Assembly: GCA_937872175.1 (NCBI GenBank)
Contig: CALMPI010000003.1
Coordinates: 1 to 64,000, forward strand
DNA: 64,000 nucleotides
Reading direction: 5' to 3'
Source: an uncultured Flavobacteriales bacterium
Lineage (GTDB): Bacteria > Bacteroidota > Bacteroidia > Flavobacteriales_F > PHOS-HE28
Every line of letters starts with the position of its first letter. The first letter of the stretch is position 1. A model generated the notes under the pieces. It was given only the letters and a program-made list of their open reading frames with translations, made no database searches and was not told the origin of the DNA. The position numbers and the translations under genes were made by a program. This document shows, one piece after another, positions 35,510 to 40,999 of the stretch.

Positions 35510-37282
35510 TCAGTTGAAGGCGATCCGCCGCACGGCACGGCCGTCAGCGAATTCCAGGGTGATGAAGTAGGCACCGCCATCCAGGGTTCCGCGCTCCAGC
35601 AGGATCGCGTCGGCGTTCACCGTGCTGTTGCGCACCAAGCGACCATCGGGCGTGTGCAGCGTGTAGCTCAGCACACGACCTGCCGGGCTGCTGATGCGCA
35701 CGGCATCGATCGCGGGGTTCGGTGCGATCACGAGCGCCGATGCGGCGGCAGGCTCTGCGATGCCGACCGGCTGGCCCACGCAGTCGCAATTGACCGTCCA
35801 CGTGTCGTTGATGGTGTTGGCATCGCCATCATCACAGGGTTGACCAGGCTGGTCCGGACCGTCGATGACGCCGAGGCAGTCGGGCGTGCCCAACGCACAG
35901 GGTCCCAACTGCAGGGCGCAGACGATGCGCGGGGTCATGTAGCCCATCACCGTATCGAGGTAGGCGCGGCCCTTGGCGCCGCTCATGTCCGGATTGCTGG
36001 CCAGGCTCGCTTGGTGCGTGGTGATGCCCAGGCCGGGGATCACCGCAGTGGCCGCAGGGCTGTTTGGATCCCACCATTGCCAGGGGCTGGCCTCATCACC
36101 GGCGGGGGGCTGCCATCGCGGACGCAGCACAGGGAAGAGCCCCTCGGCACCGGTCGCGATGGTGACGCCGTCGATGGTCTGGCCGTAGAGCGAACGCGCC
36201 CGCGCCGTGAAGGGGTCGTTCGAGAGGTTCTCGAAGCTGGCCTGGTTGCCCAGGTCCTTCACCCAGGGGATGAAGTAATTGCTGCCGGGAACATCCACCA
36301 CAGGACCACCCGTGGTGGGCACGATCACGATGCCGTAGGTGAACGGGGCGAACGGATCGAACACGGTGTGGAAAGCCACCATCGGGGCGTCACCCGCTTC
36401 GGCCCAGGTGGTGTCGGCGAGCGCACCGCCCATGTTCACGCAGAAATGCGTGGCATGGTCGAACCCGTTGGGGCGGTAGAGGGTGAGCTGGCCATTGAAT
36501 CCGGCCAGGTCGCCTACCGTGTTCGTGTCCACGTAGCTCACGTTCGGGTTGAAGGGATCGGGTCGGAACTTCTCGACGAAAAGCTCGCTGCCCTTGTCCA
36601 AGGTGGTGTGGGCCAGCGCGATGTAGCCGCCGGTGCCCTCACCGAGCACCACGATCTTGTCCGGGTCGATCCCGTAGCTGTTGGCGCCCGCGGCCTCGGC
36701 CTTGTGGGTGCGGACGCACTGGCGCACGTCGTGGATGGCCCGGTAGATGGCGTTGAGCAACTGCCCGCGGCGTTCCTCTTCGGTGGCGGCCAGCGGGTTC
36801 CAGCCCAGACGGTAGCTCATGCTCACGGCCACATAGCCGCGGCGCGCCATGCGCTTGCAGGTCTCCACGGCACAGCTGTCCGTCCGCGTTCCGACAGGAC
36901 TGCCGTTCTGCGGCGGCGGCAACGCATTCCCCGTGTGGATGTAGAGCACCATCGGACGTTCGGTCACCGCGTCCACGTTCTGGTCGGGTTCGTAGATGTC
37001 CATCCGCAGTTCGCGCACTTTCACCGCGGTGCTTCCGTCGGTGGGGTCGAAGAAGGGGGCCGGGATGGGCTGCTGGGTGCTCACCAGGGTCTGTAGCTGC
37101 GTGACCTCCGCAGGCACGTTCGGGCTGGCGAGGTTGCTGGTGAGGAAGTCGATGTTGGTACCGAAGGGCACGCTGGGGGTGATCACGATCTGGGCATCGG
37201 TGAACACCTCGTCGATATAGCGCTGCTGGGCGGCGACCATCATGGGCAGACCGAGCAACAGCAAGGGTAGGCTTCGTTTCAT
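35510..37282 (-). CDS. Secreted alpha/beta-hydrolase-like protein lacking the serine nucleophile, with T9SS tail
   Basis: 590 residues from ATG 37282 (signal peptide MKRSLPLLLLGLPMMVAAQ); upstream in-frame codons come from the palindrome region. Residues 90-230 follow the esterase/lipase pattern (PMVLYIHTGN, RRGYVAVSMSYRLGWNP, DVRQCVRTHK). At the nucleophile elbow the sequence is VLGEGTGGYIAL, with Gly in place of the usual Ser of G-x-S-x-G. The last 75 residues (LVIAPNPAIDAVRI ... GAYFITLEFADG) are a T9SS type A domain. Probably a surface binding protein or an enzyme of altered chemistry. Confidence 0.82.
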   Translation of the reverse strand: MKRSLPLLLLGLPMMVAAQQRYIDEVFTDAQIVITPSVPFGTNIDFLTSNLASPNVPAEVTQLQTLVSTQQPIPAPFFDPTDGSTAVKVRELRMDIYEPDQNVDAVTERPMVLYIHTGNALPPPQNGSPVGTRTDSCAVETCKRMARRGYVAVSMSYRLGWNPLAATEEERRGQLLNAIYRAIHDVRQCVRTHKAEAAGANSYGIDPDKIVVLGEGTGGYIALAHTTLDKGSELFVEKFRPDPFNPNVSYVDTNTVGDLAGFNGQLTLYRPNGFDHATHFCVNMGGALADTTWAEAGDAPMVAFHTVFDPFAPFTYGIVIVPTTGGPVVDVPGSNYFIPWVKDLGNQASFENLSNDPFTARARSLYGQTIDGVTIATGAEGLFPVLRPRWQPPAGDEASPWQWWDPNSPAATAVIPGLGITTHQASLASNPDMSGAKGRAYLDTVMGYMTPRIVCALQLGPCALGTPDCLGVIDGPDQPGQPCDDGDANTINDTWTVNCDCVGQPVGIAEPAAASALVIAPNPAIDAVRISSPAGRVLSYTLHTPDGRLVRNSTVNADAILLERGTLDGGAYFITLEFADGRAVRRIAFN

Positions 37283-37306
37283 GGGTCCTGATTTGTGGAA
37301 CAGGTT

Positions 37307-37314
37307 CCGAATAT
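37307..37314 (-). promoter_or_regulatory. TATATTCG -7-type box
   Basis: On the minus strand TATATTCG ends 24 bases before the ATG at 37282. It lies between the palindrome array and the gene, so the array is upstream of this likely promoter. Confidence 0.4.
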
Positions 37315-37914
37315 AGGGGTAGGGGAGGGCTCCTGCCGTTGCAGGTCGGGAAGTATGTATGGCCATACAAGTATTGAGGCCGAGCACTGATCGTTGCGGT
37401 CATCGTGCTTTGGTTCCCGCGGGTCGTGGCGGGAGGGCCTGTTACCCGACCGAGGAAGGGCGCCACAGGTGGATTGTGGCGGTACTACGGGGGCTTCGAC
37501 GGATCTGCCGCTCCATAGGCCTTCTTATGCAACTGGCGGGTTATGGATGTGTTGGCGGCACTGAGGACGGGCATTTTGAAGTATGTATGGTCATACATAC
37601 GTTGAACAACGCGGCGACCCGACCCAACATCGTTCGGGAAACCTTGCTGGTCGCGCCCGGGGGCGGTTGTTGGTCGAGCGCTATCAGCCATGAACACATG
37701 TATGGCCATACATGCGTCATGAAGCTGGGACAGATGCTGATGTTCGATGGAGCCAGCAGGAATGGTGCGCACCGCAGACGGGAATAATCACAGTGAATGT
37801 CACTTTACGACGTATGTATGGCCATGCATATATCGGCCTCCGCGGATCCATCGTGCAACGTCGATCGATCACCTCTAGCGCAGTTGTGGACCCCCTACCG
37901 ACCTCTGCGGTCCG

Positions 37915-37954
37915 CGTCCACAACATATGTATGGCCATGCATATGTTGTGGACG
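37915..37954. repeat. 40-bp near-perfect palindrome ending the array
   Basis: Left arm CGTCCACAACATATGTATGG and the reverse complement of the right arm differ at one of 20 positions. It is the most extended of the five copies and starts 23 bases from the TonB receptor stop. On RNA it could act as a bidirectional terminator, but there is no T tract. Confidence 0.8.
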
Positions 37955-37976
37955 GTCTCGGCCCCTTTCACCGGCC

Positions 37977-40892
37977 TTATCGCCGGTCCAGCTCGTAGAT
38001 CAGCTGCAGGTAGCCCAGTCGTCCCACGGCCGGGCCGCCATAGACCAGGTACACATTGTTGTTCCACATCCGGTCGAGCCGCTCGCTCTCGGGTACGCGT
38101 TCGTCGAATAGCGGAACGATCCCGAACAGGTTGCTGCAGCCCACTTTCACCGTCAGCCCGGGCTTGGGGAACTTCACGTTCACCTGGGCGTCCACCATGT
38201 CGTAGCTCGGGATGGCGCCGGTGAACTGGGGCGAGCCCTCGAACGTGAAGCCCTCCACGAACTTGTAGTTGATGCCGAAGCCCACATCACGCCGGTCCGT
38301 CCAAGGGATCCGCAGGTCGTGACCCGTGAAGCCCACGTTGAACTTGTTCAGCGGCGTGTTGAAGGCCGGGATGATGGGGTCGTCCTCTCCTGTGATCAAC
38401 CGGTTGTAGCTGTAGTTCACGCTGTAGGTCATCCGCTTCCGGTAGTAGTTCAGGCCCACGTTGGCTCCCATGGTCCGCACCGTGCTGGTGCTGTTCGCCG
38501 CCACGCGGTAGACCTGCAGTTCCTCCGGGAAGCCGGTCACCTCGTCGAAGCTGCCGTCAATGCCGATGAGGTAGCCGATGAAATCGGTGTACCAGCTCGT
38601 GTAGGCACTGGCGTCCACATAGAACTTCTCCTTCAGGGTGCCGCGGTAGCCCGCCTCCACGGTGAGCACCTTTTCCGGTCTGATCCGGTCAACATTGAAA
38701 TACTCCAGCTGGTCCAGGCCTTCCAGCAGGGTGGGCGAGCTCCGGTAGGCGTTGAAGCTCTCGATCGTGATCAGGCTGTCGCGGCCCTCCTCGAACTGGC
38801 CCTCGATGTTGCCCAGCAGGATGGCACGCCCCACGTTGTAGTAGAGGTACTGGTCGGCCAGGGTCGGATTGCGCACGCCGCGGCTCACGCTCACCCGCAG
38901 CACATGGTCGGCGTTCGGCGTGTACACGGCGCTCAGGGCGGGCGACACCTGCGGCTCGAAGTTCTGGTTCTTGTCCACCCGCACCGTCAGTGCCAGCCGC
39001 AGCTTGTCCTGCGCGAGCTTCTTCTCCAGGCCCGCATAGCCGCCAACCTCCCAGTTGGTGATCACCACGTCCGCCGTGTCCTTGAAGATGGTGCCCGCGC
39101 TGTTGGGCCGGTACAGCCTGCCGTTGCCGCCCACGGTGATCTCGGCGAACCGCGGTTTGAACCGGTACTCCCCCATGGCGTGGTAGAGCGCTGACCGGTC
39201 GAAGAACAGCGAGCCGCCATCCGTGAAACGACGCGACCGGATCTCGTCGAGCTTCGCCTCGAAGCGATCGGTGCCGACCACATACGCCGGATCAAGTTCC
39301 GTGTTGTCCGTGCGACCGATGCTGTCGGCCACCAGCTGGTGGTAACCGCTGAAGAGCGCCGCATTGTCCGCCACGAACTGGGTCAGGTAGGCATCATAGG
39401 CCTCCTGCGTGGTGATGCCTTGTGCGATCGCTTCGCTCGGCGTGAGATATCCCGGTTGTGTCGTGTTCAGCAGGGGCTTGATCCATGTTTCCCACAGGGT
39501 GAAATAGCGGATGTTCCACTCCGTGGTGACGCTGCTGGCCTCCTGCAGGCGCAGCCCGGTGGTGTAGATGTCGTACGTGTCCCCGGCATCCTCATGCGTC
39601 ACGTAGCTCCGGAAGAACCAGCGTCCTTCCTGGCGAAGCTCGAGCCGATGCTGAAAGAACTGCACCCCTTCCAGTCGGTACCGGTTGTCGCCTTGATACA
39701 CCGTGCTCCCGCGGCTGTAGTTGGTGGCCAGCTGGACCTCCACGCTGTCGGAGATCCTGTAATGCAGGCTCAAGCCCGCCTTCACGTTGTTGGTGCCGTA
39801 GTCCACCAGGTCCACCTCGCGGTAGCCTGGCCGTAGGAACAGCCCCAGGCCGGGGTACTGCCGCCGGCTGAAGAGGGATACGCTGAAATCGTTGTTCGCC
39901 GTCACCCACTCATCACCGTAGCTGTTCACCGCGTCGTACCGCCCCGGGTTGTCCACGCCGGTGGGACTGTTGCTCGTGGGGTCGTAGTTCTCGGCGTACC
40001 AGTCCTCGGCGCGCATGGCGAACAGGTTCAGTTTGTACGCGAAGCGTTCGCGACCCTCCTTGTTCTTGAACACCTGGGCCCAGCGCACGGCCCCTTCCAG
40101 CAGTTCGCGCTCGCCGGCCTTTGCGCTCACGCTCAGTCCCGGGAAGGCCCACGGGCTTTTGGTGGTCATGTTGATCACTCCGTTGAAGGCGCCCGGGCCA
40201 TAGAAGGCGCTGCTCGCCCCCGCGATCACGTCCACCTTCATCACGTCCAGGTCGCTCGCCCCCAGGAAGTTGCCCAGGCTGAAGTTGAGGCCCGGGCTCT
40301 GGTTGTCCACACCGTCGATGAGCTGCAGGCTGCGCACCGGACTGGTGCTGTTGAACCCGCGCGTGTTGATCACCTTGAAGCCGAAGCTCGCGGCCGTCAT
40401 GTCCACGCCTTTCAGGGTGCCCAGGCTCTCGTAGAAATCGCCGCTCGGGGCCTCGCGGATGGCGATGATGTCCATGCTCTCCACCGTGAGGGGTGCCTGC
40501 TTCTGCTTCTCGCTGATGCGGCTGCCCACCACCTCGGCCTCCTGCAGCAGCACCTGGTCCGTGCTCAGCTTGAACTTGAGCTCCTGGTCGGGGCTCTTCA
40601 CCTCCACCTCAAGGTCGGTGTAGCCCACGTAGCTGATCACCAGCACGTACGGCGGCAATTCGTTCACCAGCAGTTCGAACCGTCCTTCGAGGTCGGTCTG
40701 CGTCACGGCCTTCGTGCCCTTCACCGCCACGGTGGCACCGATCAGGGTCTCGCCGTTCCCCGCATCGCTCACCACCCCGCGCAGCTTGTACTGCTGGGCC
40801 ATGGTGTTCAGCGACAGCAGAAGCAGCACTATCGGAAGCAGTGCCTTCGCCGCGGACCGCGGCGTGTGGGGCAGGGGCTTGGGCGGGTGCAT
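37977..40892 (-). CDS. TonB-dependent receptor with carboxypeptidase-like N-domain
   Basis: 971 residues from ATG 40892 (a TATCTTG-type box lies 15 bases upstream; the longer start would be TTG). Signal peptide ending LNTMAQ, then a CarboxypepD_reg-like domain (about 32-110; GETLIGATVAVKGTKAVTQT), plug (about 125-240; IINTRGFNSTSP-like VINTRGFNSTSP, QLIDGVDNQSPG, FNGVINMTTKS), then a 22-strand barrel to the C-terminus. It imports a large or scarce nutrient across the outer membrane with TonB energy. No SusD partner is adjacent, so a siderophore, cobalamin or peptide substrate is as likely as a glycan. Confidence 0.92.
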   Translation of the reverse strand: MHPPKPLPHTPRSAAKALLPIVLLLLSLNTMAQQYKLRGVVSDAGNGETLIGATVAVKGTKAVTQTDLEGRFELLVNELPPYVLVISYVGYTDLEVEVKSPDQELKFKLSTDQVLLQEAEVVGSRISEKQKQAPLTVESMDIIAIREAPSGDFYESLGTLKGVDMTAASFGFKVINTRGFNSTSPVRSLQLIDGVDNQSPGLNFSLGNFLGASDLDVMKVDVIAGASSAFYGPGAFNGVINMTTKSPWAFPGLSVSAKAGERELLEGAVRWAQVFKNKEGRERFAYKLNLFAMRAEDWYAENYDPTSNSPTGVDNPGRYDAVNSYGDEWVTANNDFSVSLFSRRQYPGLGLFLRPGYREVDLVDYGTNNVKAGLSLHYRISDSVEVQLATNYSRGSTVYQGDNRYRLEGVQFFQHRLELRQEGRWFFRSYVTHEDAGDTYDIYTTGLRLQEASSVTTEWNIRYFTLWETWIKPLLNTTQPGYLTPSEAIAQGITTQEAYDAYLTQFVADNAALFSGYHQLVADSIGRTDNTELDPAYVVGTDRFEAKLDEIRSRRFTDGGSLFFDRSALYHAMGEYRFKPRFAEITVGGNGRLYRPNSAGTIFKDTADVVITNWEVGGYAGLEKKLAQDKLRLALTVRVDKNQNFEPQVSPALSAVYTPNADHVLRVSVSRGVRNPTLADQYLYYNVGRAILLGNIEGQFEEGRDSLITIESFNAYRSSPTLLEGLDQLEYFNVDRIRPEKVLTVEAGYRGTLKEKFYVDASAYTSWYTDFIGYLIGIDGSFDEVTGFPEELQVYRVAANSTSTVRTMGANVGLNYYRKRMTYSVNYSYNRLITGEDDPIIPAFNTPLNKFNVGFTGHDLRIPWTDRRDVGFGINYKFVEGFTFEGSPQFTGAIPSYDMVDAQVNVKFPKPGLTVKVGCSNLFGIVPLFDERVPESERLDRMWNNNVYLVYGGPAVGRLGYLQLIYELDRR

Positions 40893-40999
40893 GGGATGGT
40901 GTGCGCACAAGATAGGAGGCGCTGCCTGTCACCATCGGGGGGGCATCCGCTTGAACCGCGGACGCCGCCTATGCGTTCCTTCGCACCTTCACCCATCTC

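Follow-up and report, generated by a model that had tools for sequence, protein, structure and literature searches.

Why should five near-identical palindromes stand at similar distances from one another, separated by dissimilar spacers, in a single gap between two bacterial genes? This question is raised by positions 37283-37976 of the window, by which we mean the whole 64,000-nucleotide stretch of DNA that was analysed, and a sequence-only reading of it had left four options: an operator array for a dimeric regulator, a repeat-spacer array of a non-CRISPR kind, an array of cassettes with recombination sites, and small RNAs processed at hairpins. All five palindromes were found where that reading had put them, between 37355 and 37942, and the array is not due to chance, an 18-mer search at up to three mismatches returning 10 matches (5 sites on 2 strands) in the 64 kb, where 100 shuffles averaged 0.00. 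Its parts and flanking genes are as follows.

35510..37282, minus strand: flanking alpha/beta-hydrolase gene (BD-FAE, PF20434), start codon towards the array
37350..37375, no strand: operator-like palindrome 1, core ATGTATGGCCATACAA at 37355-37370
37376..37577, no strand: spacer 1, with no remnant site inside
37578..37603, no strand: operator-like palindrome 2, core ATGTATGGTCATACAT at 37583-37598
37604..37692, no strand: spacer 2
37693..37718, no strand: operator-like palindrome 3, core ATGTATGGCCATACAT at 37698-37713
37719..37808, no strand: spacer 3
37809..37834, no strand: operator-like palindrome 4, core ATGTATGGCCATGCAT at 37814-37829
37835..37921, no strand: spacer 4
37915..37954, no strand: operator-like palindrome 5, core at 37927-37942, extended to a 40-bp near-perfect palindrome
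37977..40910, minus strand: flanking TonB-dependent receptor gene, stop codon towards the array

The steps of 228, 115, 116 and 113 bp given earlier are correct, the last copy is indeed a 40-bp palindrome (95% complementary), and the four spacers are mutually unrelated, with gapped identities of 31-51% where unrelated 100-nt stretches give 48% +- 3%. A missing member had also been proposed near 37469, and here we disagree: within the 228-bp step the best score of a 26-bp matrix is -28 bits (at 37533) as against +34 to +40 for real sites, nor is this step twice a 114-bp period, the orthologous first steps measuring 193 and 198. The neighbours had both been called surface-protein genes, which holds for the TonB-dependent receptor, whereas the other encodes an esterase-like alpha/beta-hydrolase (PF20434); the array lies upstream of the hydrolase gene and stops 34 nt past the receptor gene's 3' end.

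The palindrome recurs well beyond the window. The genome to which the window belongs (G000; 4.30 Mb in 52 contigs) has 38 copies in 14 clusters of 2-5 sites, five of the 38 being those of the window, and the clusters sit in gaps between called genes, with the qualification that an alternative upstream start of some genes would overlap a site. A motif scattered singly across the genome had been named as evidence against an organised system; instead, 36 of 36 exact matches to WTKYATGGCCATRMAW fall within the 14 arrays, alongside one isolated 14-mer copy with 1 mismatch, so that G000 shows no single scattering of the exact motif and the organised system stands. The sites have a symmetric 26-bp consensus, RAMRT-ATGTATGGCCATACAT-AYKTY, with no information further out among the G000 sites, and their cores differ from it at 7 of 608 positions. 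The arms vary nearly independently, a pattern expected of the two half-sites of a dimer, and Watson-Crick pairs number 22/38 at arm pair 10 (17.8 +- 3.0 expected) and 20/38 at arm pair 11 (14.4 +- 2.6 expected). An 18-mer scan of genome contigs found 43 stretches, 35 of them from six Flavobacteriales or Bacteroidetes MAGs (JAEUSW, JADLBK, JAFDZE, JAEUSY, CALMYC and JACTMO) and eight from seven other genomes with one copy each at <=1 mismatch, where about 4 are expected by chance. The array loci are orthologous between genomes, and 13 of the 14 G000 arrays have an orthologous array among these 43 stretches, L014 being the one for which none was found there.

What distinguishes several of these loci is a small gene between or beside the palindromes, whose product belongs to the MarR family (PF01047, above cut-off for three members; for the one member with printed scores, no NCBIfam model reached its cut-off). 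Its AlphaFold2 model is a MarR winged helix (mean pLDDT 86.6), with Foldseek matches that include SlyA, MarR and MosR bound to DNA, and an N-terminal cysteine is invariant in 8 aligned proteins, which may be a likeness to OhrR-type redox sensors. The G000 gene lies outside the window, at contig C16:192317-192742, with palindromes beside it. Among G000 and its first relatives (20 genomes), homologues at >=60% occur in G006 (the source of the query), G000 and G008, and relatives occur in G004 (40%) and G002 (37%), where the gene adjoins a different palindrome, TTGCATGGCCATGCAA. G004 has 8 copies of TTGCATGGCCATGCAA at 99-100 bp on one side of its MarR gene and 3 on the other, and a second locus with 8 further copies.

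In a set of 45 genomes from one genus, with E<=1e-12 as the homologue threshold, 15 have a MarR homologue and 15 have exact matches to WTKYATGGCCATRMAW (1 to 36 per genome; a reversed control pattern gave 0 matches in all 45). Both are present in 13 genomes, the MarR gene only in 2, the palindrome only in 2 and neither in 28, for a Fisher p of 1.3e-7 that takes no account of phylogeny or of some circularity in how the pattern was chosen. The sites beside MarR genes were already in view when the pattern was drawn, and presence there is partly by construction, so that only the absences (28 genomes without the gene) and the distant arrays count as free evidence. G038, with a homologue only, has its own palindrome, TTGCTTGTACAAGCAA, in three pairs of which one brackets its MarR gene, and G030 (73% complete) has homologues and no such palindrome; the pattern-only genomes are G052, with one match, and G024, with one two-site array (L142 / L046). 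This last array is probably a transferred relic, as its stretch is unusually similar to G000 (91% identical, the neighbouring stretch 77%).

The MarR gene is bracketed by palindromes in 9 genomes and has them on one side only in 5 (G000, G042, G026, G002 and G037), and a site adjoins its own regulator gene at 14 of 18 homologue loci, the other four being second or odd paralogues. Two of the second paralogues, at L100 (G030) and L103 (G035), lie near imperfect GGCC-centred palindromes of type TGGCTGGCCAAGCA, which may be a further operator type, and no palindrome was seen near the paralogues at L102 and L104. A separate observation concerns a 4.8-kb viral contig from IMG/VR (L069), which has a single exact palindrome 272 nt from the contig start and no second copy at <=4 mismatches; a search of viral contigs that reaches close relatives confirmed no MarR homologue.

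Site and protein also change together. The site types follow the MarR tree, on which three site groups need 2 changes, the minimum, a value as low being reached in 0 of 200 shuffles (20 labelled and 8 unlabelled rows, and a correlation only); the ATGTATGG group, taken alone, does not form a resolved clade. The recognition helix DQ(S/T)TVTKT pairs with ATGTATGG, STISR with TTGCATGG, QSTITKAV with ATTCATGG and, mostly, PSTxxRxxEK with TTTGTATATACAAA; STISR-like helices are found too in paralogues that lack a clear site. Within a single genus, five operator sequences can be matched to their regulators, which makes protein-site co-evolution testable. Outside the genus, homologues at E<=1e-15 occur in 14 sampled Bacteroidia genomes (18 of 395 in all), with TTTGTATATACAAA-type sites adjoining the gene. 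Eleven of the 14 were scanned for a ATTTGTATATACAAAT-like palindrome at <=2 mismatches, which lies on both sides of the gene in six (G266, G313, G151, G410, G334 and G360) and on one side in G374, G400 and G152; G248 has none at its MarR gene, and the eleventh, G055, is outside the listing. Among the matches listed, every copy at <=1 mismatch is at the gene except one in G313. We read these gene-adjacent sites in other Bacteroidia families as the ancestral, ordinary operator state.

These results lend weight to the first of the original options, the operator array for a dimeric regulator, in that the palindrome and a MarR-family gene occur together and vary together. A MarR regulator specific to this lineage very probably has the repeat as its operator, and we consider it highly likely, from the genomic patterns described above, that the MarR protein binds the palindromes.

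If the palindromes are operators, what of the sequence between them? Orthologous spacers are 35-61% identical at most loci, against 48 +- 3% for random sequence (the low values compare unequal lengths), so that spacer divergence at most loci exceeds that of flanking noncoding DNA: noncoding DNA adjoining the arrays is 75% identical, other intergenic DNA 78% and coding DNA 85% (14 locus pairs with crude gene calls, the pair L045/L042 being poorly aligned on its left side). Spacers are conserved, by exception, at L009/L049, at L013 and its orthologues, at L016/L046 and in the window-array copies of SJ163/MAG-313. No universal motif was found inside spacers beyond 5 nt from the core. The length of the spacers is another matter, as orthologous spacing is mostly kept within 0-2 bp (132/132/132, 131/131/131, 216/217/216, 208/210/208, 183/181/181, and 121/121 for L024/L145), with one unequal family (L017, 224/207/217). 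The 131 and 132 spacers retain 41-56% ungapped identity at zero shift, so that most of their divergence is due to substitution. Across six families of two-site arrays, the median difference in spacing is 0.5 bp, compared with 6.5 bp over all 32 flank distances and 18 bp when only the 14 whose two distances are both >=50 nt are counted; the pairs in this comparison are not independent, and some of the flank differences come close to the length of a unit or spacer. Among loci the spacing varies from about 95 to 250 bp. Helical phasing was considered and rejected, 27 spacings having no common phase at periods of 10.2-10.8.

The way in which arrays come and go can be followed at several loci. The gene pair that flanks the window array is adjacent in G023 and G024, where the gap measures about 105 nt and contains no palindrome, as compared with 694 nt in G000, and the window array is a derived insertion. 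Absence from close relatives with intact flanks had been put forward as a sign against an organised system; the array is indeed absent there, yet those relatives also lack the regulator. In G045, pairs 101 bp apart occur on C16 (twice), C26 and C104, with a degraded partner on C39, and homologous 85-bp spacers (0.61-0.95) are present at four places: L119 twice, 4.6 kb apart, L124 and L121. Between the first L119 copy and L124 the homology ends 11-15 bp outside the palindromes, and more flank is common to L121 and the second L119 copy, which both lie close to contig ends. The same genome has a run of nine sites, one degraded, mostly in 101-bp steps (L120:1486-2345), with units in direct and inverted orientation that are up to 100% identical as reverse complements. 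G004 contains a near-identical tandem array (99-bp unit, 6.2 copies, 92% matches), units are duplicated in L051 and L060 (A-B type) and in L059, and L009/L049 and L013/L058/L043 are paralogous, flanks included. A plausible sequence of events would begin with an operator-spacer-operator module inserting into an intergenic gap (for the window, as suggested by the G045 modules and the empty site); arrays would then gain or lose sites through tandem duplication, and selection would keep the operators while spacers drift at nearly fixed length. Spacer hypermutation is not required, since the birth and death of units (L051, L060) could explain the divergence without a mutator.

Where the arrays lie bears on what they might do. 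Among 32 arrays with both flank genes called, 13 are in convergent, 12 in tandem and 7 in divergent gaps, and convergent gaps are over-represented against other gaps of >=100 nt in the same loci (13/32 vs 2/21, p 0.013), a small background of 21 gaps with crude gene calling and some of the 32 loci orthologous. This count drops 7 of 39 site clusters at contig ends and excludes the regulator loci of other genomes, the G027 loci, L133/L134 and the SJ163/MAG-313 orthologues. The bias stems from the other genomes (10/18), only 3 of 14 G000 arrays being convergent; 19 of the 32 are not convergent, and 11 of the 14 G000 arrays are upstream of at least one gene. Arrays with different operators recur in the same place, as in G004 and G043, where they lie in the convergent gap between genes for glycine dehydrogenase and an ABC-transporter ATPase, and in G000 and G045, where they adjoin shikimate dehydrogenase; arrays with the same operator stand beside a DUF6089 outer-membrane gene in G000 and G035 with other neighbours differing. 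Spacers at array places common to different lineages are not alignable, and the neighbours overall are functionally mixed. The frequent convergent placement outside G000 argues against simple promoter operators.

We think it likely that the palindromes are the operators of one MarR dimer, in arrays spread as modules, with a role for paired sites in a nucleoprotein complex. The recurrence of the palindrome, the co-occurrence and co-variation of the regulator, the empty site and the dispersal of modules are computed results. Around them we propose that the ~26-bp palindromes would serve as operators of one MarR-family dimer encoded elsewhere in G000, that two or more dimers bound at a set distance would form a looped or bridged complex, and that this complex would insulate, block or modulate transcription around the gap, beyond mere promoter repression. 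A bridging or insulating role is for now tentative, and we would put its chances below even. Somewhat more doubtful still is the broadest version, in which MarR and its operator doublets would be a co-diverging, genome-wide architectural system, with length-conserved pairs in often promoter-poor gaps acting as points of DNA bridging or insulation, a REPIN analogue keyed to a transcription factor and not to a transposase. What makes such a role attractive is that operator pairs are dispersed as modules with conserved spacing, often between facing genes, where there is no obvious promoter for a repressor to act on. If the bridging role is true, an ordinary type of regulator would have given rise to a lineage-specific chromosome-organising device.

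The nearest competitor is an ordinary regulon, in which a MarR repressor would act on multi-site operators upstream of its targets with cooperative looping between two sites. It would account for the 11 of 14 G000 arrays that are upstream of a gene, for operators kept while spacers drift, and for arrays that adjoin the same gene in lineages whose operator sequences differ; it does not sit well with the over-representation of convergent gaps, including the glycine dehydrogenase/ABC-transporter gap in G004 and G043, or with the functional mixture of neighbours, and we regard it as possible on odds that are somewhat unfavourable. The convergent bias would fit a second explanation, REPIN-like doublets that replicate as parasites, moved in trans by an unlinked transposase with MarR as passenger or silencer, and so would the doublet as the smallest unit at nearly all loci, the dispersed G045 modules, two of which share homology that ends 11-15 bp outside the palindromes, the empty site in G023/G024 and the parallels with REPINs (PMC3116915). 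Against this, no Y1 transposase match (PF01797) lies within 6 kb of the listed arrays in G000, G026, G004, G039 and G045 (distances that leave out G042, whose array places are not listed), the nearest being about 6 kb away (C104 of G045), and the array-poor G009 and G024 also have Y1 genes. The same loci moreover persist from species to species, their cores near-perfect and their spacers mostly saturated, and the palindrome type tracks the MarR protein, so that we hold such a parasite to be unlikely. Paired-site function, classical promoter control and REPIN-like spread are not mutually exclusive.

Two further explanations are highly improbable in our estimation. Processed small RNAs, or RNA or ssDNA hairpins, had been among the original options, and the palindromes themselves (the 40-bp copy included), the slight excess of paired arms at two positions and some alifold z-scores of -2.5 to -4.6 at the paralogous L009/L013 loci would be in keeping with them; but the arms are nearly independent and covary weakly, wobble-type changes are seen in both senses, sequence conservation is absent from most spacers, the arrays contain no Rfam match, and the alifold windows take in the palindromes. 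Decaying tandem repeats without a current function would fit the fresh tandem arrays, such as the 99-bp unit of G004, and the duplications in L051, L060 and L059, but decay is limited to the spacers, with 7/608 differences in the cores, and orthologous spacing is mostly held within 0-2 bp. A CRISPR-like array finds no support in the scanned neighbour genes or the spacer lengths: repeats here are 16-26-bp symmetric palindromes with spacers of 55-290 bp (regulator-gene spacers aside), and no cas domain was found among 36 neighbouring proteins scanned with Pfam. Nor was an integrase found among these 36, and spacers of ~95 bp are too short for ordinary gene cassettes, so that an integron-like array is not supported either; the suggestion of recombination sites survives in an altered form, as the G045 modules bounded by two palindromes and dispersed among loci.

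It is useful to set the preferred reading, operators of one MarR dimer in module-spread arrays, beside known systems. Known MarR operators generally comprise one or a few sites per promoter. The arrays resemble the autoregulated operators of MarR, SlyA, MexR, OhrR and MosR in having a winged-helix protein and a palindrome adjoining its own gene, and differ in having 2 to about 11 sites per locus, many convergent gaps, dispersal to up to about 14 loci, and module duplication. Bacterial interspersed mosaic elements (BIMEs) are clustered palindromes that act as protein-binding platforms, but repeat and protein differ here and no RAYT link was seen. REPIN/RAYT doublets (PMC3116915) are short palindromic repeats, mostly paired and extragenic, that form tandem clusters and flank a partner gene. 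Our arrays share with them the paired extragenic palindromes, the spacers less conserved than the repeats, the clusters and the flanked partner gene; unlike them, they have a MarR regulator and not a tyrosine transposase as partner, tens of sites at most and not hundreds, near-perfect symmetry in each repeat, and loci kept between species. Correia/NEMIS elements (PMC2229807) are likewise intergenic, ~100-155 bp long and, in one class, equipped with an internal IHF site, but their whole sequence is common, where ours, the G045 modules and the L009/L013 pair apart, have only the bounding operators in common. Dispersal as paired modules, kept spacing and frequent convergent placement are what is unusual here, and in the open-access literature (subscription journals being outside its scope) our search found no description of such a system.

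The odds that we give to the main reading never rested on bending-site or flank figures. The motif WATCARNNNNTTR, which we take to be the IHF consensus, was noticed by eye before it was counted; exact matches number 8 in 66 non-redundant discovery-set spacers, where dinucleotide shuffles give 0.2 and flanks 0, and matches at one mismatch number 33 against 6.5 +- 2.4. In truly held-out genomes (G027 removed; a wider held-out set contained L143, the same locus as L039 of the discovery set) there is 1 exact match against 0.2, and 9 at one mismatch against 4.3 +- 2.1 (10 of 200 shuffles as high), making the case for IHF-like bending sites there marginal. IHF-like sites recur 11.5, 23.5 and 44.5 nt from the palindrome edge (L020, L034, L057, L053, L042, L045, L018, L015, L036 and L029), and each of 4/4 genomes tested has two HU/IHF genes. 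Two convergent loci, L009:2640-3400 and L013:2880-3620, with their orthologues L049, L058 and L043, hold a paralogous noncoding element of several hundred nt with conserved spacer and flanks; its alifold z of -2.5 to -4.6 comes from printed windows, palindromes included, and it is possibly a novel RNA or element. The arrays searched for tRNA or Rfam genes contained none, the sole Rfam match being a Bacteroidales small SRP RNA (RF04183) at L018:476-582, 2.4 kb from the array.
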